The position numbers and the translations under genes were made by a program. This document shows positions 4,293 to 20,587 of a DNA stretch of 64,000 nt, piece after piece (the first letter of the stretch is position 1; every line of letters starts with the position of its first letter). The notes under the pieces are model-generated. The model was not told where the DNA came from. It worked only from the letters and a program-made list of their open reading frames with translations, and searched no databases. The DNA is from Lutibacter sp. B1 (GTDB lineage: Bacteria; Bacteroidota; Bacteroidia; Flavobacteriales; Flavobacteriaceae), in the NCBI RefSeq assembly GCF_012524075.1, contig NZ_JAAZUI010000011.1, forward strand, positions 1 to 64,000, in the 5' to 3' direction.

Positions 4293-6548
<2,256 letters not shown>

Positions 6549-6627
6549 AACCGAATTAAAACAAAGTTTTTCATATTAATTTCGATAAAAAATTTACATA
6601 AAAAGTAAACTTAATATTGTAATAACA

Positions 6628-6672
6628 AAAACTTGTATTAGTAGTTAGTAATAAACTATTAATGCAAGTTTT
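6628..6672 (+). terminator. katG terminator hairpin
   Basis: A 19-base-pair stem (6628-6646 with 6654-6672, two G-U wobbles) closes a 7-base loop and runs into the T-rich stretch TTTTACTTTTC. It lies 80 bases after the katG stop codon on the same strand. Confidence 0.7.
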
Positions 6673-6794
6673 ACTTTTCATCTTGTTTTTGATTTATTGA
6701 AATACATTTTCTTAGCCCAAATTTCAATCACAATTATTACCTTAGTACCATGCAGAATATCATAGTTGACTTTTACACAAAATAGGCATACAAA

Positions 6795-8228
6795 ATGAAA
6801 TTATTAAAACGAATTTTAAAAGTTGTTTTTACACTAGTAGGATTACTGATTATATTCATTCTTATCACGTTTACTGTTGATGAACAAAGAACAAGCTACC
6901 TCAAAATCAAAAAGAATGAAGCTGCAAATAACAAATCATACCTTATAGCCAATGTTAATGTTATTTCGATGACACAAGATACTGTTTTAACAAATAAAAT
7001 GGTATATATCAAAGAGGGTATAATTCAATCTATCAACGACAGTATTAAAATTCAGGATATTGAAGTGATAGATGCTAAAGGTAAATTTTTAATGCCCGGA
7101 CTTATTGATATGCATGTACATGTTTGGGATAACTACGAACTTGGTCTTTATTTATCTAATGGTGTTACGGCTATTAGAAATGTGTGGGGTATGCCAATGC
7201 ATTTGAGACTAAAAAATGAAGTTAACAATGAAGAAATTCTTTCACCTTTATTTTATACTACCGGACCTAAACTTACAGGTCCTGAGTTTATTGGTGATGA
7301 TAATTTACAACTGAACAATCCGGAAGAAGCTAAAAAAAAGGTACTTTCGTATAAAAATCGAGGATATGATTTTCTAAAAACGTACTACGGTTTACCTAAA
7401 AATATATATGACACAATAATAGAACAGGCTAAGATTTCTGATATGGATATTGTTGCACACCCTTCACAAAAAGTACCTTATTCATATCATTTTAAATCAC
7501 AAATAAAATCTATAGAACATGCAGAAGATATTGTACAACAGCCTCTAAATTATCAATTAGATACATTAAAACTCAATCAAGTAATAAACAATTTTCACAA
7601 TTCACCACATACCTCTTTCTGCCCTACCTTAATAGCTTACTATAATATTTACAACATGCTTCAAGATGATGAAATATTATCTTCGGAACCTGTTAAATTT
7701 ATGAACCCATCTATAAAAAAAGTTGACAGTAAAGGCCAATTTGAACGTTGGAATACAACTAAGAAAAAAGATTCATCTATAATTGACAGAATAAAAAATC
7801 AGCACGATTTTCACCTTTTAATTATAAAAAAACTTAACGATGCAAAAGCCAATATAATTTGTGGTACAGATGCCGGAATTGGAGTTACTGTTCCCGGTTT
7901 TTCAATCCATCAAGAATTATCTTTTTACAAAGAAGCCGGACTTTCTAATTATGAAGTTATTAAAACTGCCACAGTAAATGCTTCAAAAACTCATAAAATA
8001 ATGAGTAATATGGGTACAATTGAAAAAGGTAAGATTGCAAATCTTCTTCTTTTAGATGAAAATCCATTAATAGAATTATCAGCTTTACAAAAACCTAATA
8101 CTGTATTTATAAATGGTAGAAAATTAAATAGAGATATTTTAGATAACTTTGAAAAAAAGGCAAAAAACAGAACCAATTTTATTGCTTCCTTACTTAGATA
8201 TGTTGAGAATTTTATAGTTGAGAAGTAA
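6795..8228 (+). CDS. Membrane-anchored amidohydrolase
   Basis: A 477-residue protein of the metal-dependent amidohydrolase superfamily (imidazolonepropionase-like branch). Residues 8-28 are a membrane anchor or uncleaved signal, so the catalytic domain is probably periplasmic. The core begins with the beta-sandwich around 50-98, then the HxH metal pair H107/H109 in PGLIDMHVHVW. The likely bridging carbamylated lysine is K195 (FLKTYYG), further metal histidines are H222 (IVAHPS) and H242 (IEHAEDI), and the catalytic Asp is near residue 358 (CGTDAG). The C-terminal sheet is typical (GTIEKGKIANLLLLDENP). All key residues are present, so activity is likely, but the substrate (a cyclic amide, peptide or similar) cannot be told. 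The gene appears to stand alone. Confidence 0.85.
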   Translation: MKLLKRILKVVFTLVGLLIIFILITFTVDEQRTSYLKIKKNEAANNKSYLIANVNVISMTQDTVLTNKMVYIKEGIIQSINDSIKIQDIEVIDAKGKFLMPGLIDMHVHVWDNYELGLYLSNGVTAIRNVWGMPMHLRLKNEVNNEEILSPLFYTTGPKLTGPEFIGDDNLQLNNPEEAKKKVLSYKNRGYDFLKTYYGLPKNIYDTIIEQAKISDMDIVAHPSQKVPYSYHFKSQIKSIEHAEDIVQQPLNYQLDTLKLNQVINNFHNSPHTSFCPTLIAYYNIYNMLQDDEILSSEPVKFMNPSIKKVDSKGQFERWNTTKKKDSSIIDRIKNQHDFHLLIIKKLNDAKANIICGTDAGIGVTVPGFSIHQELSFYKEAGLSNYEVIKTATVNASKTHKIMSNMGTIEKGKIANLLLLDENPLIELSALQKPNTVFINGRKLNRDILDNFEKKAKNRTNFIASLLRYVENFIVEK

Positions 8229-8411
8229 ACCTACAGCTCAACCAATAAAATATTTCATTTAAAATTGAAAAAGATTGTACAATAATTGTTATAAACTTTT
8301 TTTCATCCATAAATTAATAACAGTTAATAAATTCAATATTTTTGATACAATTAATAGTTTGCTTTTTAAACAATTAGTTTAAGCATTGCTATATTAAAAA
8401 AATGAAAAAAA

Positions 8412-8981
8412 ATGAAAAAAATTATTAACTATTTCCTTCAAGGCTTATTATACATTGCACCACTAGGTGTTACAGCCTACATTATTTATTGGATATTTAA
8501 CTTTGCTGATAATTTACTTAATAATATTTTACAAAAATTTCTTAAAGTAGATATTCCCGGCTTAGGAGTAGTAGTATTAATACTGTTTCTTATAACAGTT
8601 GGTATTATTGGTCAAAGCATAATTTCAAAGCCTTTCAAAATACTTTTTAAACACGTATTAGAAAAGGCTCCTCTATTACAATTTATTTATCAGGCTGTTA
8701 ACGATTTATTTTCAGCTTTTGTAGGAAAAGAAAAAAAGTTTAACAAACCAGTATTAGTGCTTGTTAACCCAATTTCAAATCTTGAAAAACTAGGATTTAT
8801 TACTGAAGATGATTTGGCTCATATAGGCGAAAAAGATAAAGTAGCTGTATACTTTCCTCATTCTTATAATTTTTCAGGTGAGTTATTTATAGTTCCTAAA
8901 AATCAAATTAAATCTTTAGATATAAATCCGGCTGTTTTAATGAAGTTTATTGTATCTGCAGGTGTTTCAGATTTAAAATAA
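8412..8981 (+). CDS. DUF502 family membrane protein
   Basis: A 189-residue protein with two N-terminal membrane spans (about 8-30 and 48-70) and a cytoplasmic or periplasmic C-terminal domain. The opening LQGLLYIAPLGVTAYI and the later PLLQFIYQAVNDLF match the DUF502 family, whose biochemical role is not established. Two ATGs occur ten bases apart in different frames (8402 and 8412); only 8412 opens the long frame. A TerC-type transporter follows 39 bases downstream, so the two may share a transcript. Confidence 0.8.
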   Translation: MKKIINYFLQGLLYIAPLGVTAYIIYWIFNFADNLLNNILQKFLKVDIPGLGVVVLILFLITVGIIGQSIISKPFKILFKHVLEKAPLLQFIYQAVNDLFSAFVGKEKKFNKPVLVLVNPISNLEKLGFITEDDLAHIGEKDKVAVYFPHSYNFSGELFIVPKNQIKSLDINPAVLMKFIVSAGVSDLK

Positions 8982-9020
8982 AGTTGAAAAGTCTTTTTTT
9001 ATTAAATACATATCATCAAA

Positions 9021-9974
9021 ATGGAACATATAACTCCTTGGATTATTTTAATTATTTATGTACTTACACTTTTAGTGTTTGATTTTTTTGTACTTCACAA
9101 AAAAAATAAACCATCATCTGTAAAAAAGGCAATTTTTGAAACTTTATTCTTTATTATTAATGCCCTAATTTTTTGCTTAATCATATTTTGGAGCTACAAT
9201 AGTAACATTATCGATAATATTAACAATCTATCTCCAAACCAGGCAGTAATTAAATATTTGACCGGTTATTTAATTGAATTATCACTAAGTATTGATAATC
9301 TTTTTGTAATTGCAATTATATTTACTTCTTTCAAAATTCCAAATCAACATCAACATAAATTACTTTTTTTAGGAATTCTTGGTGCAATTGTATTTAGAGC
9401 AATTCTAATAAGTGTAGGACTGGTACTTATTCATAAAATTAAAGGAATGAATATAATTTTTGGTTTATTCCTTTTATTTACTGCATTTAAAATGCTAAAA
9501 AAAGAAACTGAAAACAAAGAAATTAAACAGCAAAAGTGGTTGATGAATTTTTTTAGATATAGTAATAACCTAGACAAAGGAAAATTTATAACAACTATTG
9601 ATGGGAAAAAAGTTTTTACAGCTTTATTTGGCGCATTAGTTACAATTGAGTTTACCGATTTATTATTTGCTTTAGACAGTATTCCGGCAATTTTTGCAGT
9701 AACTACAGATCCTTTTATTGTTTACAGCTCTAATATATTTGCAATAATGGGCTTACGATCTTTATACTTTTTCTTATCAAGTATGTTACAGAAATTTAAT
9801 TATCTGAAATATAGCATATTCTCAATTTTAGTTTTTGTTTCCGTTAAATTGATTACCGAGCCTTATGTTGATATTCCTGAATGGTTTTCACTTTTATTAA
9901 TTGCAATTTCATTAATAATTGGCGTGTATGTATCATTAATAAAAGCTGACAAAAATCAAATAAAAGAAAAATAG
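9021..9974 (+). CDS. TerC/Alx family membrane protein, probable Mn exporter
   Basis: A 317-residue integral membrane protein with eight to nine predicted spans. It has the two acidic signature helices of the TerC family: ELSLSIDNLFVIAIIF (about residues 90-105) and EFTDLLFALDSIPAIF (about 213-228), followed by GLRSLYFFL. The paired acidic residues are thought to bind divalent cation. Studied relatives (Alx in E. coli, MeeF/MeeY in Bacillus) export manganese, often loading secreted metalloenzymes. The name TerC comes from tellurite resistance, but no other ter genes are here. Placement after DUF502 suggests a shared transcript. Substrate is inferred from the family. Confidence 0.85.
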   Translation: MEHITPWIILIIYVLTLLVFDFFVLHKKNKPSSVKKAIFETLFFIINALIFCLIIFWSYNSNIIDNINNLSPNQAVIKYLTGYLIELSLSIDNLFVIAIIFTSFKIPNQHQHKLLFLGILGAIVFRAILISVGLVLIHKIKGMNIIFGLFLLFTAFKMLKKETENKEIKQQKWLMNFFRYSNNLDKGKFITTIDGKKVFTALFGALVTIEFTDLLFALDSIPAIFAVTTDPFIVYSSNIFAIMGLRSLYFFLSSMLQKFNYLKYSIFSILVFVSVKLITEPYVDIPEWFSLLLIAISLIIGVYVSLIKADKNQIKEK

Positions 9975-10072
9975 ATAAATTATTGAATTATTAGCAATAT
10001 TATATATTTTTACAACCTTTATCTTTTTTCTATTTTAATAAAAAGAATCAGTAATAATTAGTATAATTGTAC

Positions 10073-10900
10073 ATGCAAAAGAAAATATTTTATATAGTCC
10101 TATTTTTAATTTCAATTAAAGGATTTTCACAAGAACCTAAGACCGCCGATTCAATAATTAACCCTAGTAATATTGTATTTTTAAAAGGTCAGGTTGTAAG
10201 TAACTTAGATAAGCAACCATTAAAAGGTGCCCATTTATTTAATTTAAACTCCGTTATTGGAACAATCTCAGACGATGAAGGTAAATTTAGTTTAGCAACC
10301 AAAGTACAAGATACTATTTACATCTCTTATTTAGGATATCAATCAATTAAATTAAAAATTACAAATGATTTATTAAAGGGAAATGAGTTAGTAATTGAAC
10401 TACACGAAAAAGCTGAAGAAATAAAAGAAGTAGTGGTTAAATCGCATAAACTTATTGGGGTTTTAGAAATTGATGCTAAAAATGTGCCTAAAGATAAATA
10501 TGCTCGTATTCATATTGTTGGGTTACCTCAAACTTATGAAGTTGGTGTAAAACAGCAAAAAGAATTTAATTCTCCTGTTGATGCGCTGTTTCGTCCTATA
10601 GATTTTGTGTATAATATGTTTGGAAAAAAACCAAATCAATTAAAAAAATTGAAAAAACTTAAAGACGAAGATGACTTACGTAAAATGCTTGAAGACAAAT
10701 TCAATAGAGAATTGATGATGGAATATTTGGACATGGATGCTGAAGAATTGAACGAGCTACTTAACGAATGTAATTATTCTGATTATTTTATAAAATCGGC
10801 AAGTGACCTGCAACTTATTGAGGCTGTTTTACTTTGTTATGAAAATTATAAAGCCATTAAAAAAGGCAGTACCATTAAAGAAGAAGACAAAAAGCAATAA
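10073..10900 (+). CDS. Exported carboxypeptidase-like regulatory domain protein
   Basis: A 275-residue exported protein. A signal peptide (residues 1-20, ending ISIKGFSQ) precedes one CarboxypepD_reg-like beta-sandwich domain (about 36-115: GQVVSNLDKQPLKGAHL, ISYLGYQSIKL). This is the domain that usually heads SusC-type receptors, but here no plug or barrel follows. The rest is charged and helical (about 150-275) with no recognised domain. The first ATG in frame is at 10073; an upstream TTG at 10067 is less likely. It converges on the LacI-type gene with only 6 bases between. Function unknown; periplasmic or lipid-free surface association is possible. Confidence 0.75.
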   Translation: MQKKIFYIVLFLISIKGFSQEPKTADSIINPSNIVFLKGQVVSNLDKQPLKGAHLFNLNSVIGTISDDEGKFSLATKVQDTIYISYLGYQSIKLKITNDLLKGNELVIELHEKAEEIKEVVVKSHKLIGVLEIDAKNVPKDKYARIHIVGLPQTYEVGVKQQKEFNSPVDALFRPIDFVYNMFGKKPNQLKKLKKLKDEDDLRKMLEDKFNRELMMEYLDMDAEELNELLNECNYSDYFIKSASDLQLIEAVLLCYENYKAIKKGSTIKEEDKKQ

Positions 10901-10906
10901 TTTATT

Positions 10907-11944
10907 TTAAGTTGTAACTAAAGACTTAAAGGAAGATTCTCTAACAATTATATTTGTTTTTATAACAATTGTTTTATTGTTTACAGTATTATCATTATTG
11001 TTAATTTCATTAATTAAAGCTCTAAAAGCAACTTCTCCTATTCTATGTCCGGGTTGATCTATAGTTGTTAATTTAGGTTCAATAATTATTGAATTTTCTG
11101 AATTACTAAAACCTACTACTCCAATTTCTTCAGGTATCTTTATTTTATGCTTTTTTAAAGTTTTAATTACTCCTATAGCAGCACCATCGGTTACTGCAAA
11201 AACACCGTCCGGTCTATTTTGTAAACTTAACAATATACTTGTAAGCCTTTTCCCTTGATGCATAGAAATATCTTCAGTGCTTAAAATTAAATTCTCATCA
11301 ATTTCTAAATTGTAATTTTTTAAAGCCCTTAAATAGCCTGCAAATCTTTTTTCTGAATTGAATGATTTTTCTGTTTCTTTTATAATAGCAATTCTCTTTT
11401 TTCCTGTATTTATTAAATGTTCTACTGCTCTAAAGGCAGCATCTTCATCATCAATAACAACCTGTGTACAAGGCACTTTAGTTGATACTTTATCAAATAA
11501 TACCAAAGGTATATGTTCTAAAACTTTCAAAATACTATCTACGTTATGCGTTTTTCTCACTAACGACAGTAAAATACCATCAACACCAAACTGCTTCATT
11601 GTTTCTAACATTTCCGCTTCCTTTTGCACATTATTTCTAGATTCAGAAATAATAATTTTATACCCGTGAATTTCAGCTTCACTAATTACACCTTTAAGTA
11701 AAGTTGAGGTAAAGTAATGAGCTATATTAGGTACTATAACTCCAATTATATTTGTTTTATGAGATCTAAATCCTTTTGCAAATAAGTTAGGAGCATAATT
11801 AAATTTTTTTGAAACTGAGATAACTTTTTCTTTTGTTTTTAAACTTATATCAGGATGATCATTTAAAGCTCTTGAAACAGTTGATATCGACAAATTTAGT
11901 TCTTCTGCAATTTGCTTTAATGTAGTTATATTTTTTTTAGACAT
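10907..11944 (-). CDS. LacI-family repressor of the glycosylglycerate locus
   Basis: A 345-residue LacI/GalR-type regulator. The N-terminal helix-turn-helix (TLKQIAEELNLSISTVSRALND, about residues 8-28 with hinge to 60) is followed by a periplasmic-binding-like sensor domain (NIIGVIVPNIAHYF to the end) that should bind a sugar-related inducer. The ATG at 11944 was chosen because it places the HTH at the usual distance from the start; the longer frame begins only with a TTG. The gene is divergent from the sugar-uptake and breakdown genes starting at 12109. Two palindromes of LacI-operator type lie between them. The inference is local control, with the glycoside or a breakdown product as inducer. 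Confidence 0.9.
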   Translation of the reverse strand: MSKKNITTLKQIAEELNLSISTVSRALNDHPDISLKTKEKVISVSKKFNYAPNLFAKGFRSHKTNIIGVIVPNIAHYFTSTLLKGVISEAEIHGYKIIISESRNNVQKEAEMLETMKQFGVDGILLSLVRKTHNVDSILKVLEHIPLVLFDKVSTKVPCTQVVIDDEDAAFRAVEHLINTGKKRIAIIKETEKSFNSEKRFAGYLRALKNYNLEIDENLILSTEDISMHQGKRLTSILLSLQNRPDGVFAVTDGAAIGVIKTLKKHKIKIPEEIGVVGFSNSENSIIIEPKLTTIDQPGHRIGEVAFRALINEINNNDNTVNNKTIVIKTNIIVRESSFKSLVTT

Positions 11945-11995
11945 ATTTAATTTTACTGAATTTAATGTAAATATAGAATTAAAAAAATCAAGTTT

Positions 11996-12020
11996 CAAAC
12001 GTTTGCGGTAACGTTTGCGG
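11996..12020. promoter_or_regulatory. Tandem LacI-type operator-like palindromes
   Basis: CAAACGTTTG at 11996-12005 is a perfect 10-base palindrome with the central CG typical of LacI/GalR operators. A second AACGTT core lies at 12010-12015 within GGTAACGTTTGCGG, its centre 12 bases from the first, about one helical turn. Both contain the shared word ACGTTTGCGG or its start. The pair sits between the divergent LacI-type gene and the TonB receptor, as expected for a local operator. Confidence 0.7.
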
Positions 12021-12108
12021 AATTATTTTACGATTTTTTAAAAAATAGAAGGACTATTAACTTTAATTTAATCAAAAATTAATAAATTATTAATCAATAA
12101 TCACTCTT

Positions 12109-14697
12109 ATGAAAAAAATCATTTTACCTTTTTTAATGCTGATTGGTTTCATTTCTTATTCTCAAAATATAATTAAAGGAACTATTTTAGATAATACGGG
12201 AAACCCAATACCAGGAGTAAATATTATTATTACTGGAACTGATGTTGGAACAACAACCAACTTTGATGGTGTGTATGAATTATCAACTCAATTATCTGGT
12301 GAACAAGAATTAAAAGTCTCGTTTATGGGATATTTTACACAAACAAAAAAAATTACTTTATCGGGCGCACAAACAATAGATTTTATTTTAATTGAAAGCG
12401 TAGAAAGTTTAGATGACGTAGTTTTAACAGCTACATCTACTAGAAGATCGCAAAAAGAAACACCACTTTCAATTACATCATTTAGTGCAAAACAATTATC
12501 AAGAGTTAATACAAGTAGCCAGGCAGATGTACTTAGAAGTGTTCCGGGAATTACTGCAGAAGGTGGTGGTGGTGAAGTTGCTTCAAATATTTTTGTTAGA
12601 GGTTTACCTTCAGGAGGTCAATTCCAATTCAATCCATTACAAATTGATGGAATGCCGGTATTAAGCACTTTTGGTTTAAACTCATCTGCACACGATGTTT
12701 ATTTTAGAAATGATATTGGAATGAAGAGCTTGGAATTTGTTAGAGGTGGTTCTTCTATATTATATGGTGTAGGATCAGTAGCAGGTATTATAAATTATAC
12801 AAGTGTTACAGGTTCAGCAACACCTAAAAATATTATCCGATTAGAAACTGCTACAGATTCAAGATATAAAGGGGAGTTTTTAACCAGCGGACAAGTTGGT
12901 GGTGAAGACTCAAATACTTTTTATGCTTTAACCGGTTTTTACAGATATGATGATGGCCCAATTAAAACAGGTTTACCTACAGAAGGTTTTCAATTAAGAG
13001 GTAATATTAAAAAAGTTACAGAAAAAGGCTCGTTTACTGTTTATGGTCAATATATTGATGATCAAGTACAATATTATTTACCATATCCTTTAAAAGGTGG
13101 CTCAAGAGATAAACCTAAAGGAACTGATGGTGATGAAATTATGACATTACAAACATCTGAAGCTGCAGGATTTTCTTACGCAACTCCTGATGGAATTTAC
13201 AATTCTCCTCTTGAAGATGGAGTTTCTACAAAAGGTGGTTATATTATGACTAATTTTGTGCATAATTTTGAAGAAAACTTAAAATTAGATGCCAAATTAA
13301 GATATTCAAAATACGACCATCAATTTAATTTCTTTTTAGATGGTAGTGGTGTAAGCGGTGCAAAAGCTGTTGAAACCCAACAAGAATTCTTAGATGCAAG
13401 AAGTTTATCTAGTGGAACTTTCACTTATTTAAACGGACAACCTTTAGCTTCTAATGCTTTATTATACGAAAACAGAATTTTAGATAGAACAAGACCTTTA
13501 AGAGAATTGGTAGCCGACATTAAATTGACAAATGTAATTGGAGATCACAATATTACTGTTGGTACATTTTTATCTAGATCTAAAGCAGGTGATTTTAATT
13601 ATATCACAAGCTATTTAAGTGAATATAATAATAGCCCAAGATTAATAAATGTTTCTGATTATACAATTAACGGTATTACAAATAGAGGAACTTCTTATAC
13701 AAACAGAGATATAAGTAGTAATAAAATTGCATTTTTTGCTACAGATGAAATTAAACTGGAAAGATGGAATTTTGATATAGGTGTACGTTATGAAAGAGCT
13801 TCCGGAGATATTTCAAATGAAGGGACTGATACTTATACTGTTGACGATACAGGAATTGCTAATTTAGATAATGTAAAATGGGGTAATGGATCATTCACAA
13901 AAGGACATGTTTCTGCTGACGATTTTGCCGTTGCTTTAGCTGCTTTGTATAAACTAAGTGATGATTTAAGTGTGTATGGTAACTTCTCAAAAGGTTATTT
14001 CTTCCCTGAGTTAAGAGGTGTTCAATTTGATGCTTTTGGTAATCCTGCTTCTTATGAAACAGAAACAATTATACAAGGTGAACTTGGTTTAAAATATGGA
14101 ACTGAAAAGTTTTCAGGAACTTTTGCAGCTTACGCTACAACTTTAAAAGATAGAAGATCTATTAGTTTTGTAAATGCGCCAGGCGGTGGAACAACTGAAG
14201 AAGTGGATAAACAAGACACTGAAACTTTTGGTGTAGAAGGCACTTGGAACTGGAAATTCTATGACAATTTTAGTTTTAACGGAACTATGACTTATCAAGC
14301 TCATGAAATAACAAAATCTGAAAATGACCCAGAGTTAGAAGGTAATAAATTAAGAAGACAACCAGACTTTATAACCAAAATTGGTTTGGATTATGATAAT
14401 AATAAATTTGATGGTGGTTTAAGTTATAATTACACAGGAGATAAATATTCTAATGATGCAAATACTATAAAACTTGACGGTTTTGGAATTCTTAATCTAA
14501 ATTGTGGATACACTTTTGATATTGGAGAAAAAGAAGAAACGCTTCGTTTAGGTATGCAAGTATTTAATTTATTAGATGATGAAGGTGTTACTGAAGGATC
14601 TCCTAGACTAGGAAATAATCAAACTGATGAAGAATATTTTGTAGGTAGACCAATTTTACCAACAAGATTATTTTTTAATGTTACTTTCAATTTTTAA
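12109..14697 (+). CDS. TonB-dependent receptor of the glycosylglycerate locus
   Basis: An 862-residue outer-membrane receptor. It has a signal peptide (1-18, ISYSQ), a CarboxypepD_reg-like domain (about 21-105: KGTILDNTGNPIPGVNI), a plug domain (about 118-230: TPLSITSFSAKQL, VLRSVPGIT, NIFVRGLPS, FVRGGSSILYGVGS) and a C-terminal 22-strand-type barrel ending in the aromatic LFFNVTFNF. It is shorter than typical SusC (about 1000 residues) and no SusD gene follows, so it probably takes a small ligand. It is the first gene of a five-gene run (12109-20577) encoding glycosidase, symporter, phosphorylase and glycerate kinase. The inferred role is energy-driven uptake of the glycoside across the outer membrane. 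Confidence 0.9.
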   Translation: MKKIILPFLMLIGFISYSQNIIKGTILDNTGNPIPGVNIIITGTDVGTTTNFDGVYELSTQLSGEQELKVSFMGYFTQTKKITLSGAQTIDFILIESVESLDDVVLTATSTRRSQKETPLSITSFSAKQLSRVNTSSQADVLRSVPGITAEGGGGEVASNIFVRGLPSGGQFQFNPLQIDGMPVLSTFGLNSSAHDVYFRNDIGMKSLEFVRGGSSILYGVGSVAGIINYTSVTGSATPKNIIRLETATDSRYKGEFLTSGQVGGEDSNTFYALTGFYRYDDGPIKTGLPTEGFQLRGNIKKVTEKGSFTVYGQYIDDQVQYYLPYPLKGGSRDKPKGTDGDEIMTLQTSEAAGFSYATPDGIYNSPLEDGVSTKGGYIMTNFVHNFEENLKLDAKLRYSKYDHQFNFFLDGSGVSGAKAVETQQEFLDARSLSSGTFTYLNGQPLASNALLYENRILDRTRPLRELVADIKLTNVIGDHNITVGTFLSRSKAGDFNYITSYLSEYNNSPRLINVSDYTINGITNRGTSYTNRDISSNKIAFFATDEIKLERWNFDIGVRYERASGDISNEGTDTYTVDDTGIANLDNVKWGNGSFTKGHVSADDFAVALAALYKLSDDLSVYGNFSKGYFFPELRGVQFDAFGNPASYETETIIQGELGLKYGTEKFSGTFAAYATTLKDRRSISFVNAPGGGTTEEVDKQDTETFGVEGTWNWKFYDNFSFNGTMTYQAHEITKSENDPELEGNKLRRQPDFITKIGLDYDNNKFDGGLSYNYTGDKYSNDANTIKLDGFGILNLNCGYTFDIGEKEETLRLGMQVFNLLDDEGVTEGSPRLGNNQTDEEYFVGRPILPTRLFFNVTFNF

Positions 14698-14721
14698 ATT
14701 TTTAAGTTAATTGTTTTCTCA

Positions 14722-14764
14722 AAAGAATACATTAATAGTTGGGTATTCTATTAATGTATTCTTT
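14722..14764 (+). promoter_or_regulatory. Intercistronic hairpin between receptor and enzyme genes
   Basis: A perfect 17-base-pair AT-rich stem (14722-14738 with 14748-14764) encloses a 9-base loop, in the 81-base gap between the receptor and the GH63-type gene. There is no clean T-run directly after it (AAATTAAATT), so it may be a partial terminator or an mRNA-stabilising element that lets the receptor be made in excess of the downstream enzymes. Confidence 0.55.
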
Positions 14765-14778
14765 AAATTAAATTAATT

Positions 14779-16089
14779 ATGGATTATAAACTTAGTAATA
14801 CTGCTAAAGAAATCTTATTGAATAATTTTCAGGAAAAAGGGTTTACTATTCCCAGCAAAGGTTTATATCCTTTTCAGTGGTTATGGGACTCAGGCTTTAT
14901 TGCTATTGGTTTTGCTCACTTTGATATTGAAAAAGCTAAAACTGAAATAAAAACACTTTTAAATGCACAGTGGGAAAACGGTTTTATTCCTCACATCATT
15001 TTTCATGATGAAAGTAATACTTATTTTCCGGGACCAGATTTTCATCAAGCCAACTTACATGCACAAGCAAATAAAAAATATAAATCTACAGGAATGACAC
15101 AACCTCCTGTTACAGGATTTGTGCTTGAAAAAATCTATAAAATTGCGACTGAGAAAGAAGATATTCTAAATTTCATTAAAAATAATATTGATCAAGTTTA
15201 TAAAAATCATAGCTATTTTTATGAAAATAGAGATCCTCACAATGAAGGATTAGTTTATATATACCATAATTGGGAATCAGGTACTGATAACTCCCCTATT
15301 TGGGATGATATTTGGGAAAGCTTCGATGTCCCGGATTATGATTTTGAAAGAAGAGATACTTCACACGTTGATCCTTCTCAAAGACCAACAAAAAAAGAAT
15401 ACAATTATTATTTACACATTGTAGATATAGCTAAAGAGTGCAAATACAACGATTATAAAATAGCGGAATTATCACCTTTTTTAGTTCAAGATCCGTTATT
15501 TAATGCCATGCTTATTAAATCCAATAACTCTTTAATTAATTTGTATAAAATTATTGGCAATAATGATACTAAAATTGAGCAACTTCAAAAATGGCAAAAA
15601 AAGAGCATAACTTCTTTTAATTCTAAATTATATGATGAAGAATTGGGTGCTTATATTCATTTTGATTTAAGAAATAAAAAACCTATTCGCTTTATAAGTT
15701 CACCATCTTTTTCTCCATTATTTGCTGGAATACCAAATAAAGAACAAGCAGAAAAACTTATCAATACAATGATTACCAAGTTTGGCGGTGAAAATATGTA
15801 TTTATGTGCTTCTTTTGATCCAACAAGTAATCGCTTCGATCCAAAAAAATATTGGAGAGGTCCTGTTTGGGTAAATTTAAACTGGATTATTTATTATGGA
15901 TTACTTAATTATGGTTATAATGATATTGCCAAACAAATAAAGTCTGATACCCTTGAAATACTGGAAAAAGTTGGTTTTTATGAGTATTTTGATGCCAGAA
16001 AAAAAGCTTACACTAAAGAAATCAATGGGTATGGAGGCAGTAACTTCTCTTGGAGTGCTGCTTTATACCTAGATTTAATTAATAACTAA
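14779..16089 (+). CDS. GH63-type glucosyl/mannosylglycerate hydrolase-like glycosidase
   Basis: A 436-residue (alpha/alpha)6-barrel glycosidase (MGH1-like, GH63 group) without a signal peptide, so cytoplasmic. Conserved features match the bacterial mannosylglycerate and glucosylglycerate hydrolases: the sugar-site WLWDSGF with W36 and D37, TGMTQPP with Q108, and the proposed acid Asp in NWESGTDNSP (D170). A C-terminal Glu (E402 or E414 near NGYGGSNFSW) would be the base. Length is close to the roughly 420-450 residues of characterised members, far shorter than eukaryotic glucosidase I. With a glycerate kinase in the operon, hydrolysis of an alpha-glycosylglycerate to free sugar and glycerate is the best reading. 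Trehalase-type activity cannot be excluded from sequence alone. Confidence 0.78.
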   Translation: MDYKLSNTAKEILLNNFQEKGFTIPSKGLYPFQWLWDSGFIAIGFAHFDIEKAKTEIKTLLNAQWENGFIPHIIFHDESNTYFPGPDFHQANLHAQANKKYKSTGMTQPPVTGFVLEKIYKIATEKEDILNFIKNNIDQVYKNHSYFYENRDPHNEGLVYIYHNWESGTDNSPIWDDIWESFDVPDYDFERRDTSHVDPSQRPTKKEYNYYLHIVDIAKECKYNDYKIAELSPFLVQDPLFNAMLIKSNNSLINLYKIIGNNDTKIEQLQKWQKKSITSFNSKLYDEELGAYIHFDLRNKKPIRFISSPSFSPLFAGIPNKEQAEKLINTMITKFGGENMYLCASFDPTSNRFDPKKYWRGPVWVNLNWIIYYGLLNYGYNDIAKQIKSDTLEILEKVGFYEYFDARKKAYTKEINGYGGSNFSWSAALYLDLINN

Positions 16090-16106
16090 AATGTAAAACA
16101 AACAGT

Positions 16107-17726
16107 ATGAATTGGTTAGATTATTTAATTGTTATAGTATATTCTGCAGGTTTTTTAGGATTAGGGTATTTTTTCAAAGAAAATAAAAATGCTAAAGACT
16201 ACTTTTTAGGTGGTCAGGATATGGGTTGGTTTCCATTGAGTTTATCTACAATGGCAACCCAACTTTCAGCAATTAGTTTTATCTCTGCTCCGGCTTTTGT
16301 TGGACTGGCGCAAAATGGAGGTATGAAATGGTTAACCTTTGAATTTGCTGTTCCTTTGGCTATGGTTGGAATTATGTTGGTCATCATTCCTCCCCTTTAC
16401 CGATCAAATATTGTTAGTATTTATGAATATGTTGAAAGACGATTTGCAACATCAACAAGAATTGTTTTAAGTGTTGTTTTTCAAGTTAGCCGATCGTTGG
16501 CAACCGGTGTTATGGTATATACTATCGCAATGATATTACAAGCGGTTTTAAATATCAGTTTTCACTGGACAATTATAATAATTAGTGTTATAACCTTAAT
16601 CTATTCTTACCAAGGAGGTATGAAAGCTGTTGTTTGGGGAGATACTATCCAAATGATTATTTTATTTGCAGGATTGATTATATGTCTTATTTACGGATGG
16701 AATTTACTTCAAGAAACAGGTAATTTTACAGGATTTGATATTGAAAGATTACAAGTAGTTGATTTTTCTAACTATGGTTTTAGCGGAGATGAATTTGGCT
16801 TTTGGCCAATGGTTTTAGGTGGTTTATTCTTATATATTTCCTATTATGGAACCGACCAAACACAAGCACAACGACTACTTTCAGCCAAAAATGAAAAAAC
16901 CATAAAAAAATTACTGCTTGCCAACGGATTACTTCGTTTTCCGGTTGTTTTAGTATACTGCGTAATGGGTTTAATTATAGGATCATTAGTGTATTTAGCT
17001 CCAGATTTTTTAGGTGAAATTACAGCCATGACCAAAACTCATTATCCTGAACAATTTATGGCTAACGGTATAAAAGCCGATTTAATGATTCCTGTTTTTA
17101 TAACTAAGTATTTACCTCACGGTTTAATAGGTGTTTTAATTGTAGGTATCTTATCTGCAGCAATGTCATCATTAAGTTCAACAATAAACTCATTGGGAGC
17201 TGTAACTGTTGAAGATTTATTTAACAGAGGAAAAACCAAGTTAAGCACTGAAAAACACATGAAATATTCTAAATTTTTTGTATTGTTTTGGGGAATTGTT
17301 TGTATTGCCTTTGCCTATTTATTTGGAGGGAGCAAAGGAACTGTAATTGAGTTAATTAATATAATATCTTCACAATTCTACGGACCAATTTTAGCCACTT
17401 TTGTACTGGCAATTTTAGTAAAAAGGGTAAATCATATTGGCATGAATGTTGGCCTTATTGGAGGTGTACTCATAAATTTAATAGTAAAATACAATTTCGA
17501 TAATATTTTTTGGATTTGGTATAACCTTACTGGCTTTTTAATTACAACTATTTTAGCATTACTAGTTAGTGAAATTTACAAAACCAAAACCAATGAAAAT
17601 TTAAACATTAATTTTTCAATTAAAAGAGAAGATGTATTGTCAAAAGAAGTATTTATTCTACTCTTCTTTTTTATTGCAATCATTCTATTTAGTATTTATC
17701 TGCCAACCATTTTAGGAGGAATTTAA
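16107..17726 (+). CDS. Sodium/solute symporter (SSS family)
   Basis: A 539-residue inner-membrane transporter with about 13 hydrophobic spans of the sodium:solute symporter family (SGLT-type fold). The first span is preceded by a very short periplasmic N-terminus; the FLGGQDMGWFPLSLS segment and the later LSSTINSLGAVTVEDLF helix are typical of the family's sugar-transporting branch. It follows the GH63-type gene by 17 bases and precedes the phosphorylase by 15 bases, so it is clearly co-transcribed. The likely role is to import the intact glycoside from periplasm to cytoplasm, since neither degradative enzyme has an export signal. Confidence 0.88.
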   Translation: MNWLDYLIVIVYSAGFLGLGYFFKENKNAKDYFLGGQDMGWFPLSLSTMATQLSAISFISAPAFVGLAQNGGMKWLTFEFAVPLAMVGIMLVIIPPLYRSNIVSIYEYVERRFATSTRIVLSVVFQVSRSLATGVMVYTIAMILQAVLNISFHWTIIIISVITLIYSYQGGMKAVVWGDTIQMIILFAGLIICLIYGWNLLQETGNFTGFDIERLQVVDFSNYGFSGDEFGFWPMVLGGLFLYISYYGTDQTQAQRLLSAKNEKTIKKLLLANGLLRFPVVLVYCVMGLIIGSLVYLAPDFLGEITAMTKTHYPEQFMANGIKADLMIPVFITKYLPHGLIGVLIVGILSAAMSSLSSTINSLGAVTVEDLFNRGKTKLSTEKHMKYSKFFVLFWGIVCIAFAYLFGGSKGTVIELINIISSQFYGPILATFVLAILVKRVNHIGMNVGLIGGVLINLIVKYNFDNIFWIWYNLTGFLITTILALLVSEIYKTKTNENLNINFSIKREDVLSKEVFILLFFFIAIILFSIYLPTILGGI

Positions 17727-17741
17727 AAATAAAAGTAACTT

Positions 17742-19436
17742 ATGATTAAGTTTTTAGAAAAAGAAACCATTTTAAACACTTTAAAACCATTGTATGGAGA
17801 GCGTTCCATTTGGGTTTTTGAAAATATAGAAAAATTATTAAAAAAATACACGTCAAAAATTCAAGATGAAGAAATTCCTTTATCTGAAAAAGATGTAATT
17901 TTAATAACGTATGGTGATAATGTTCAAAAAAAAGGACAATCTCATTTAAAAACATTAAAAGAATTTGTTGACACCTTTTGCACACCCGAAATTAACAGTA
18001 CACATATACTTCCATTTTATCCATACACTTCAGATGATGGATTCTCGGTGGAAGATTATTTTAAAGTAGACAAAAATTTAGGAACTTGGAAAGATATTTC
18101 CAGTTTAGCAGAATCAAGTTATTTAATGTTTGATGCTGTTGTTAATCATATGTCAAAATCTTCTCAATGGTTTCAATCATTTTTAGCTGAAGAAAAAGGT
18201 TTTGAAAATTTCTTTATTGCTGTAAATCCAAAAGAAGACTTGTCAAAAGTAGTTAGACCAAGAGCTTTACCTCTATTAACTCCTTTCAACACAAAAAAAG
18301 GAGATCTAAAACACATATGGACAACTTTTAGTGAAGATCAGGTAGATCTAAATTATGCTGATCCGGAAGTATTTATAGCTGTATTGGAAGTATTGTTATT
18401 TTACGTTTCAAAAGGTGCAAAATTCATTCGTTTAGATGCCATTGCATTTTTATGGAAAACGATAGGAACCAACTGTATTCACCTTACAGAAACGCATTCT
18501 ATTATTAAGTTATACAAAAAAATTATTGGAGAGCTTACTCCAAATTTGGTTTTTATTACAGAAACCAATGTACCACACGAAGAAAATATTTCCTATTTTG
18601 GTAATGGTTTTGATGAGGCGGATATGGTGTATAATTTCACCCTTTCCCCGCTTTTAGTGTATTCTATAATGAAAGAAGATGTAACTACACTTATAAAATG
18701 GGCACAATCTTTAACATTTCCAAGTAATAAAGTCTGTTTTTTTAATTTTACGGCAAGTCATGACGGTGTTGGAGTACGCCCTTTGCAAAATATAATTCCA
18801 GATGAAGAAATTAACTTATTAGCCAAACGCGCAGAAAAACACGGCGGACAAGTTTCATATAAAAATAATGAAGATGGCTCACAATCTCCTTACGAGTTAA
18901 ATTGTAACTATATGGATTTGCTGAGTGCTCAAACAGATACAGATGATGTACGTGTAAAAAAAATGATGCTTACCCAAACTGTAATGTTAGCTTTCCCTGG
19001 TATTCCGGGTATTTATTTTCATTCTTTAGTTGGGTCTCGTAATTATTATAAAGGTGTTGAAGATTCGGGTATTAAACGAAGAATTAACAGAGAAAAACTC
19101 AATTTTGATTCACTTCAAAAAGAGCTGACAACTTCAACAACCTTACGAAACAAAATATACTCTACATATAAAAAACTTCTTAAAATCCGAACTCAAGAAA
19201 AAGCATTTCATCCTTTTGGTAAAACATCGTATACTTCAACCAATAACAATAAAATTTTTATTATAAAAAGAACACACGAAAATGAGGTTATTTTTACGAT
19301 ATTTAATTTTAGCAATTCAACTGTAAAAATGAATGCCTTAGTACCAAATGCAATTAACTTATTGAATGAAAATAAGGTAATGAGTGCTACTTGGGAATTA
19401 AGTCCTTTTCAATTCTATTGGTTAAAAGAACAATAA
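17742..19436 (+). CDS. GH13_18 glycoside phosphorylase, probable glucosylglycerate phosphorylase
   Basis: A 564-residue cytoplasmic enzyme of the sucrose phosphorylase subfamily GH13_18. Signature elements are HILPFYPYTSDDGFSVEDY (about 88-106), nucleophile D232 in RLDAIAFLWK, acid/base E274 in ITETNVPHEENI, and transition-state Asp D341 in TASHDGVGVRP. The FLWK and GTNCIHL segments after the nucleophile resemble the glucosylglycerate and sucrose-6-phosphate phosphorylase branch more than bifidobacterial sucrose phosphorylase, and the length (about 560 rather than about 500) agrees. The reaction would be glucosylglycerate plus phosphate to glucose-1-phosphate plus glycerate. The glycerate kinase gene 7 bases downstream supports this acceptor. 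Sucrose or glucosylglycerol specificity remains possible. Confidence 0.82.
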   Translation: MIKFLEKETILNTLKPLYGERSIWVFENIEKLLKKYTSKIQDEEIPLSEKDVILITYGDNVQKKGQSHLKTLKEFVDTFCTPEINSTHILPFYPYTSDDGFSVEDYFKVDKNLGTWKDISSLAESSYLMFDAVVNHMSKSSQWFQSFLAEEKGFENFFIAVNPKEDLSKVVRPRALPLLTPFNTKKGDLKHIWTTFSEDQVDLNYADPEVFIAVLEVLLFYVSKGAKFIRLDAIAFLWKTIGTNCIHLTETHSIIKLYKKIIGELTPNLVFITETNVPHEENISYFGNGFDEADMVYNFTLSPLLVYSIMKEDVTTLIKWAQSLTFPSNKVCFFNFTASHDGVGVRPLQNIIPDEEINLLAKRAEKHGGQVSYKNNEDGSQSPYELNCNYMDLLSAQTDTDDVRVKKMMLTQTVMLAFPGIPGIYFHSLVGSRNYYKGVEDSGIKRRINREKLNFDSLQKELTTSTTLRNKIYSTYKKLLKIRTQEKAFHPFGKTSYTSTNNNKIFIIKRTHENEVIFTIFNFSNSTVKMNALVPNAINLLNENKVMSATWELSPFQFYWLKEQ

Positions 19437-19443
19437 AAAATTT

Positions 19444-20577
19444 ATGAGAATTTTAGTTGCACCCGATAAATTTAAAGGTTCATTAACAGCAAACGAAGTA
19501 TGTTTAGCTGTTGAAAATGGTGTACACCTAATTGATTCGTCTATTGAAGTAATTAAACATCCTTTAGCCGATGGTGGTGAAGGTACATTAGAAATTTTAC
19601 AAAATTATTTTAAACTTGAAACCATTTCAGTTTTAGTAAAAAATCCTTTATTTAAAGATATTACAGCTAGTTACAAAATTTCTAAAAACACTGCTTATAT
19701 TGAAATGTCTAATGCATCAGGACTACAACTTTTAGAAAAAAATGAACAAAATTGCTTTTATACAACTACGTTTGGAACCGGAGAACTCATTTTAGATGCT
19801 ATTAAAAGAGGTTTTAAAAACATTATTTTATTTATTGGAGGAAGTGCCACAAATGATGCCGGAATTGGAATGGCTGCTGCTTTAGGATACGAATTCTGTA
19901 ATTCTAAAGGAGAAAAAATAAGTCCAATAGGTAAAGAGCTTTTAAATATTGCTGAAATTAAACGTAACCATTTAAAAATAGATGTAAACACCATCAATTT
20001 TACAGTTGTTTGCGATGTGAAAAATCCGTTATTTGGTATTAATGGAGCTGCTTACACCTACGGATCTCAAAAAGGTGCATCTACCCAAGAAATTGAATTA
20101 CTCGACCAAGGACTGCAAAATTTTAGCAATAAAGTTGAAAAATACTTACATACTTCTGTTTCAACTATAAAAGGTGCAGGGGCTGCAGGAGGTTTAGGTG
20201 CAGGAGCCGTTTGTTTTTTAAATGCGACTATAAAATCAGGTATTGATTTTGTAATTGAACAAACCAGATTAAAAGAACATCTAAAAAAAGGAATTGACCT
20301 TATAATTACCGGTGAAGGCAGCGTTGATAAGCAAACAATTCACGGAAAAGTTATTAAAGGAATTAGTGATATTGCCCAAGAAAATAACATCCCTTTTTAC
20401 ATAATTTCAGGTATAGCAAAAGATAGAGAATTGGTAGAAGAAAATTTAAAACCTAGCGCTATCAGTACTATAGTAGATTTAAATGTACCTGTTGAAGAAG
20501 CTGTCAAAAATGCTGATTTTTATGTAAGTTTAATTACTTCAAACATTATAAAAAGCATAAAAAAAGCCAACAAATAG
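19444..20577 (+). CDS. Glycerate kinase (GarK/GlxK family)
   Basis: A 377-residue cytoplasmic glycerate kinase of the bacterial type I family, which generally yields 2-phosphoglycerate, a glycolytic intermediate. Typical motifs are APDKFKGSLTA at the N-terminus, HPLADGGEGT (about 40-49), GGSATNDAGIGMAAALG (about 134-150), GAGAAGGLGAG (about 243-253) and TGEGSVDKQT (about 285-294). It is the last gene of the operon, 7 bases after the phosphorylase, and its stop codon lies inside the terminator loop. Because neither sucrose nor trehalose breakdown releases glycerate, its presence is the main argument that the operon's substrate is a glycerate glycoside. Confidence 0.93.
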   Translation: MRILVAPDKFKGSLTANEVCLAVENGVHLIDSSIEVIKHPLADGGEGTLEILQNYFKLETISVLVKNPLFKDITASYKISKNTAYIEMSNASGLQLLEKNEQNCFYTTTFGTGELILDAIKRGFKNIILFIGGSATNDAGIGMAAALGYEFCNSKGEKISPIGKELLNIAEIKRNHLKIDVNTINFTVVCDVKNPLFGINGAAYTYGSQKGASTQEIELLDQGLQNFSNKVEKYLHTSVSTIKGAGAAGGLGAGAVCFLNATIKSGIDFVIEQTRLKEHLKKGIDLIITGEGSVDKQTIHGKVIKGISDIAQENNIPFYIISGIAKDRELVEENLKPSAISTIVDLNVPVEEAVKNADFYVSLITSNIIKSIKKANK

Positions 20578-20587
20578 TTGGCTTTTA
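20556..20587. terminator. Bidirectional terminator after glycerate kinase
   Basis: GCCAAC (20566-20571) pairs with GTTGGC (20577-20582) around loop AAATA, followed by TTTTATG on the plus strand. An A-run (20560-20565) precedes it, so it also reads as a terminator for the convergent prohibitin-like gene. The glycerate kinase stop codon overlaps loop and stem. Confidence 0.75.

Follow-up and report, generated by a model that had tools for sequence, protein, structure and literature searches.

A six-gene cluster occupies positions 10907 to 20577 of a 64,000-nucleotide stretch of the Lutibacter sp. B1 genome (contig NZ_JAAZUI010000011.1, positions 1 to 64,000; hereafter, the window). A gene for a LacI-family repressor lies divergent to a run of five genes encoding a TonB-dependent receptor (TBDT), a GH63 glycosidase, a sodium/solute symporter (SSS family), a GH13_18 phosphorylase, and a glycerate kinase (glyK). 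An earlier interpretation of the bare DNA (the sequence-only reading) had proposed that this set takes up a glycerate glycoside intact and feeds it into glycolysis. All six genes were recovered where that reading had placed them, and the gaps of 7-17 bases that it claimed between the enzyme genes measure 17, 15, and 7 bases; the gap between the TBDT and GH63 genes is 81 bases. The features are as follows.

10907..11944, minus strand: LacI-family repressor (Pfam LacI 45.9 bits, cut-off 27; Peripla_BP_3 101.2 bits)
11995..12006, no strand: predicted LacI operator TCAAACGTTTGC (consensus GCAAACGTTTGC)
12007-12018, no strand: tandem second site GGTAACGTTTGC, two mismatches, directly after the 11995-12006 site
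12109..14697, plus strand: TBDT (Pfam CarbopepD_reg_2, Plug, and TonB_dep_Rec barrel)
14779..16089, plus strand: GH63, predicted glycosylglycerate hydrolase, MgH-like (MGH1-like_GH PF22422, 296.8 bits, cut-off 27)
16107..17726, plus strand: sodium/solute symporter, SSS family (PF00474; TIGR00813 210.3 bits, cut-off 184)
17742..19436, plus strand: GH13_18, predicted glucosylglycerate phosphorylase, GGaP (Alpha-amylase PF00128; TETN, PYELN)
19444..20577, plus strand: glycerate kinase, Gly_kinase family (PF02595 420 bits; TIGR00045 391.5 bits, cut-off 168.45)
20562..20586, no strand: bidirectional terminator-like hairpin with a 10-bp stem at the end of the run, common to a convergent gene

The mechanically called lacI reading frame begins at TTG 11998. 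The start is most likely ATG 11944, since the protein, at 345 amino acids (aa), then agrees in length with many relatives (340-347 aa). The absence of SusD noted by the sequence-only reading held up: a Pfam scan of ten proteins from the locus and its surroundings matched no SusD family. A SusCD-type polysaccharide utilization locus was rejected on these grounds and on the score of the TBDT against TIGR04056 (97 bits; cut-off 368.25). By a crude hydropathy check, the TBDT has a signal-peptide-like N-terminus, and GH63, GH13_18, and glycerate kinase have none.

Signature residues of the two glycoside-cleaving enzymes

The best solved relative of GH63 is Thermus thermophilus TTHA0978 (2z07/4wva; 316.6 bits), followed by the M. 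hassiacum glucosylglycerate hydrolase (MhGgH). We took 19 ligand-contact positions from the description of MhGgH (PMC6608630). Eighteen of the 19 are identical in GH63, including the catalytic residues D182 and E419, and the direct glycerate contacts (Y36, W40, Y88, R216, and Y375) are all kept. The sole changed position is Q434, which is Phe in GH63 and, by alignment, also in the Thermus chain. The comparison was extended to 11 Deinococcota rows and 90 labelled Bacteroidota (some genomes appear twice, and one is Balneolota). Every row shares the M. hassiacum residue at 16 of the 19 positions and has Phe at 434; H78 and F89 vary. The M. hassiacum enzyme prefers glucosylglycerate, and the Thermus and Selaginella MgH treat glucosylglycerate and mannosylglycerate alike (PMC6608630). 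We infer that Phe at 434 may matter for substrate preference.

A review recognizes a GGaP by two marks, (T/S)ETN, which lies at the tip of strand 5, and a loop A Glu (PMC7178133), and another study assigns a GGaP from TETN together with PYELN (PMC10608839). Both fingerprints are present in the window GH13_18 protein: TETN at 273-276, and a PYELN loop A with its Glu. When 16 distinct proteins were compared, 15, the window's included, carried TETN and PYEL; the 16th, a sucrose phosphorylase of the same genome, has neither and has NLDLYQ instead. This protein passes the sucrose phosphorylase model TIGR03852 with 471.2 bits (cut-off 334.4), and the window protein fails it with 204.6 bits. The sucrose phosphorylase gene belongs to a separate locus (L213; C183:84000-103000, 5853-13438) made up of lacI, TBDT, sucrose phosphorylase, MFS permease, and PfkB kinase genes, with no evident SusD between them. 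L213 is an internal control, with the same layout as the window locus and a different sugar.

Distribution of the locus, its receptor, and its operator

We searched 397 Flavobacteriaceae genomes, that of Lutibacter sp. B1 included, and found GH63 in 57 (E<=1e-30). Within four genes of GH63, scored by identity thresholds, lie a symporter gene in 56 genomes, glyK in 49, lacI in 31, the TBDT gene in 29, and GH13_18 in 2; these presences are lower bounds, because several contigs end near GH63. In the gene-order comparison that the sequence-only reading had suggested, lacI, TBDT, GH63, SSS, and glyK occur together in 28 of the 57 genomes, more than expected by chance. Twenty-six of these loci are without GH13_18 and two have it; another locus lacks only glyK, at a contig end. 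Among the 57 genomes, a phosphorylase adjacent to GH63 was seen only in the window and in G181 (read as L064). The usual locus has a hydrolase and no phosphorylase; the phosphorylase is not a normal member, and the double form is new here. Beyond this family, five of the 11 Deinococcota loci (L046, L048, L049, L051, and L052) have GH13_18 after GH63; among the six others, L043 and L044 end soon after GH63.

The TBDT was sought independently in the 397 genomes, with at most two candidates scored per genome (E<=1e-120). Thirty genomes carry it, and GH63 lies directly downstream in 29 of the 30 (Fisher p 5e-27, uncorrected for relatedness).

To examine the operator, we collected 57 lacI-divergent gaps, of which 50 remained after removal of 7 repeats (near-identical species pairs are still among them). 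Of the 50, 33 contain the 12-mer GCAAACGTTTGC exactly, 15 differ from it at one base, and 2 at two or more. As the 12-mer was derived from these same gaps, the controls are the count outside them, 3 sites in 992,792 bases of the same loci, and a search of the Lutibacter genome. In those 3.42 Mb, 11995-12006 is the only site with at most one mismatch (the reversed pattern gave 10 per strand). LacI is predicted to bind at this conserved operator and, given a single operator-like site in the genome, most likely controls the window operon alone.

At a threshold of at least 50% identity, GGaP is present in 10 of the 397 genomes. Four of these have SSS-GGaP-glyK loci (L150, L151, L152, and L157) and no GH63 match in the genome. 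In four more (L153-L156, corresponding to G002, G383, G180, and G228), GGaP is clustered with a GpgS-like and a glycerate 2-kinase-like gene; G002 and G180 also hold a GH63 locus elsewhere. The window GGaP groups with the four symporter-linked GGaPs and apart from those linked to GpgS (fork support 82/93, not starred). The L153-L156 clusters comprise a HAD phosphatase, a MOFRL glycerate 2-kinase-like protein, a GpgS-like glycosyltransferase (GpgS_Meth model 319 bits; cut-off 700), and GGaP, with families scanned on L154 and the other clusters matched by reading-frame sizes and, for L155, also by N-termini. They point to possible glucosylglycerate synthesis in Flavobacteriaceae.

We also built quick trees of the symporter and the kinase. 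The symporter tree (83 rows) omits five duplicate or truncated loci, identical rows, and low-identity rows, and has three very long branches flagged. In it, the four GGaP-only loci have symporters of a single clade, which sits within the hydrolase-type symporters (fork support 97), and the clade of the window, L064, and L158 falls in the opposite deep lineage. In the kinase tree (77 rows), the GGaP-only loci again lie among hydrolase-type rows, although the support for their exact position is weak. L158 (G113), with the sister symporter and kinase, lacks both GGaP and TBDT. Most simply, these trees can be read as showing a single uptake and kinase core that has carried a hydrolase, a phosphorylase, or both; the window form may have arisen by gain, or the L158 form by loss.

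The four GGaP-only loci and three GH63 loci without the TBDT (L194, L196, and L205) are followed by opposite-strand genes of ~290-310 aa (DUF4249 in L150, the one scanned), which are accompanied by a TBDT of ~790-830 aa; the order differs in L151. These shared downstream genes look as though the enzyme cassettes had replaced one another at a single site in the chromosome.

Predicted uptake and catabolism of glycerate glycosides

The cluster is very probably a regulated operon for the uptake and catabolism of alpha-glycosyl-D-glycerates, that is, glucosylglycerate and mannosylglycerate, the latter also known as digeneaside. The substrate class, the cytoplasmic cleavage, and the dedicated receptor proposed by the sequence-only reading are each supported by separate tests on sequence: the active-site residues, the phosphorylase fingerprints with their sucrose phosphorylase control, the TBDT-GH63 linkage, a conserved operator that is single-copy in its own genome, and the exchange of cleaving enzymes on one transporter and kinase core.

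In the proposed pathway, the glycoside would pass the outer membrane via the dedicated TBDT and, still intact, the inner membrane via the Na+ symporter, a presumed importer. Once in the cytoplasm, it would lift LacI repression at the operator in the lacI-TBDT gap. GH13_18 would phosphorolyze glucosylglycerate to glucose 1-phosphate and D-glycerate, saving one ATP relative to hydrolysis followed by a kinase, and GH63 would hydrolyze mannosylglycerate and part of the glucosylglycerate. Glycerate kinase would route glycerate into glycolysis, and free hexose would be handled by genes elsewhere in the genome. A polyphosphate glucokinase-like protein is encoded there (293.8 bits; cut-off 250). So is a type I mannose-6-phosphate isomerase (PMI), which the catalytic model PF20511 matched, while PF01238 (PMI C-terminal part) found no match in the genome.

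Several observations weigh against this interpretation. GH63 scores 321.6 bits against the NCBIfam equivalog for glucosylglycerate hydrolase (NF047898; cut-off 550) and so is not a member of that narrower model, and it exceeds the cut-off of Pfam Trehalase (61.6 versus 21 bits). No GGaP model is among the NCBIfam matches of GH13_18, the best of which, sucrose phosphorylase, is below its cut-off. In one carrier of the TBDT (G303), GH63 was not found in the genome; its TBDT gene reaches a contig end. In 28 of 57 loci, some of them cut by contig ends, GH63 has no such TBDT nearby, which makes the receptor dispensable or replaced there. GGaP and GH63 co-occur weakly, with GH63 in 4 of 10 GGaP genomes versus 53 of 387 others (p 0.04); with so little overlap among the carriers, it is the shared core and the adjacent pairs that tie the two enzymes together, not their co-occurrence. 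The lack of a GpgS-like match in the Lutibacter genome speaks for the interpretation, but that search had no positive control there. Finally, the operon would hold two enzymes for one substrate class, and one of them could have another substrate.

Of the alternatives, a locus that is in practice devoted to mannosylglycerate is possible, if doubtful. The TBDT, symporter, and LacI would then recognize mannosylglycerate, and the phosphorylase would be a side acquisition acting on a minor substrate. This would agree with the commonest form of the locus, an MgH-like GH63 that lacks a neighboring phosphorylase (55 of 57 genomes), with the Phe shared with the Thermus chain at the Q434 position and the even treatment of both substrates by MgH, with the mannose-6-phosphate isomerase, and with the digeneaside loci or genes predicted in North Sea Flavobacteriia and Maribacter (PMC6298971, PMC8072126). 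It sits less well with the position of the window phosphorylase inside the operon. The nested symporter lineage probably carries glucosylglycerate, because the phosphorylase-only loci use it; this too argues against such a specialization, although the window symporter belongs to the other deep lineage. Another small alpha-glucoside (sucrose, glucosylglycerol, or trehalose) is a quite improbable substrate. GH13_18 relatives do include sucrose and glucosylglycerol phosphorylases, and GH63 passes the Trehalase cut-off, but its MGH1-like_GH score is far above its Trehalase score, and MhGgH leaves glucosylglycerol uncleaved (PMC6608630). We rejected all three as the main substrate because the loop A and acid/base fingerprints are of the GGaP type, the aglycone kinase is a glycerate kinase, and sucrose phosphorylase has its own locus, L213.

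It is improbable, too, that the enzymes turn over self-made glucosylglycerate, a role that GGaP may have in GpgS clusters, while the TBDT and symporter only recapture leaked solute. The GpgS-like clusters of four Flavobacteriaceae genomes do contain a GGaP; against this stand the missing GpgS-like match in the Lutibacter genome, subject to the limit on that search given above, the grouping of the window GGaP with symporter-linked ones, and a divergent LacI with its own operator, which suggests induction by the substrate. Least credible of all, the TBDT might be an unrelated siderophore or vitamin receptor that lies upstream by chance. Its best NCBIfam match is indeed a siderophore receptor model, but at 130.8 bits it misses the cut-off of 223.5, and the TBDT reaches the cut-off of none of the NCBIfam models listed. 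Searched by profile against solved structures, the TBDT gave partial matches only, the best to the N-terminal part of a SusC homologue, and its gene faces the lacI operator. A siderophore receptor was rejected on the missed cut-off and on the position directly upstream of GH63 in 29 of 30 carriers.

Returning to glycerate glycosides as the substrate class, we are evenly divided over a broader picture, in which Flavobacteriaceae would scavenge dissolved glycerate glycosides with high affinity by a modular system. One core of TBDT, Na+ symporter, LacI, and glycerate kinase would take either a hydrolase cassette for mannosylglycerate or a phosphorylase cassette for glucosylglycerate, and the window would be a rare double form that handles both osmolytes under one repressor, whose operator occurs once in the genome. 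The named Flavobacteriaceae relatives are mostly of marine genera.

Relation to known systems and further features of the loci

The sequence-only reading had remarked that it knew of no description of a dedicated SusD-free TBDT route for so small an osmolyte. The literature searched, itself a partial coverage, describes no TBDT for a glycerate glycoside. The remark is weakened by a SusD-free sucrose TBDT in Xanthomonas (PMC1790865) and by the digeneaside loci already predicted in marine Flavobacteriia. MgH and GGaP together are also not described in the literature searched, most subscription papers lying outside this partial coverage.

Xanthomonas SuxA is a TBDT with experimentally shown sucrose transport, and the same study found no SusD-like protein in Xanthomonas (PMC1790865). 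The sux locus (SuxR, SuxA, SuxB, and SuxC) resembles the window locus in having a repressor, a SusD-free TBDT for a small glycoside, a single-component sugar transporter, and a glucoside-active enzyme. It differs in its substrate, sucrose, in its amylosucrase and non-SSS transporter, and in its phylum. We take the sux transporter to be of the MFS type.

Clusters of this kind have been suspected before in bacteria associated with seaweeds. For North Sea flavobacterial loci, digeneaside is named as a possible substrate (PMC6298971), and for Maribacter dokdonensis, digeneaside genes homologous to those of Zobellia are reported (PMC8072126). Two Maribacter contigs in our set (L031 and L034) carry the lacI/TBDT/GH63/SSS/glyK locus, and we infer that these are the published digeneaside loci. 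The source cited for the Zobellia locus is reportedly Barbeyron et al. 2016. The window locus shares family and substrate class with the digeneaside loci, and it has an added GGaP between symporter and kinase. With described GGaPs of GH13_18 (EC 2.4.1.352; PMC7178133), that enzyme shares TETN, the loop A Glu, and a glycerate kinase neighbor. The usual neighbors, according to the same review, are a glycerate kinase and biosynthesis genes, whereas the window GGaP sits in a TBDT operon beside a hydrolase. GH63 has the ligand residues of the Thermus MgH (PDB 4wva) and M. hassiacum enzymes to the extent given above; unlike MhGgH, it has Phe for Gln434, scores below the NCBIfam cut-off, and belongs to a TBDT uptake operon.

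Many marine cyanobacteria produce glucosylglycerate, and red algae produce mannosylglycerate, both of them salt-protecting solutes; to our knowledge, the consumers of both are little studied. The TBDT, together with MgH/GGaP and the GCAAACGTTTGC operator, offers a genetic marker for the consumption of glycerate glycosides, and the locus is a testable case of hydrolytic and phosphorolytic enzymes on one uptake system. The gain is incremental, since the enzymes and the TBDT principle were already known; the new part is probably the second, energy-saving enzyme, a predicted phosphorylase that most relatives lack.

Around the window genes, the region has 9 terminator-like sites against a mean of 3.7 in shuffled sequence, and 39 sigma-70-type promoter matches against a mean of 51, fewer than by chance. 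Promoters of Bacteroidota follow a -33/-7 pattern, which was not found in the lacI-TBDT gap of the window and gave little in 11 relatives. No tRNA was found in the window, nor any Rfam match at gathering score.

A gene of ~200 aa lies between GH63 and the symporter in many relatives and not in the window; it is found in L014 (11418-12020; a GNAT acetyltransferase, the one scanned) and at the same place in L016, L018, L020, L027, L031, L034, and L042. In L189 (G150), the symporter gene beside GH63 is split into three reading frames, like a decaying gene or an assembly error. In the GH63 locus of Emticicia aquatica (L033), a ROK sugar kinase gene (14009-14920) lies directly downstream of the glycerate kinase gene, which fits a hydrolytic release of free hexose.

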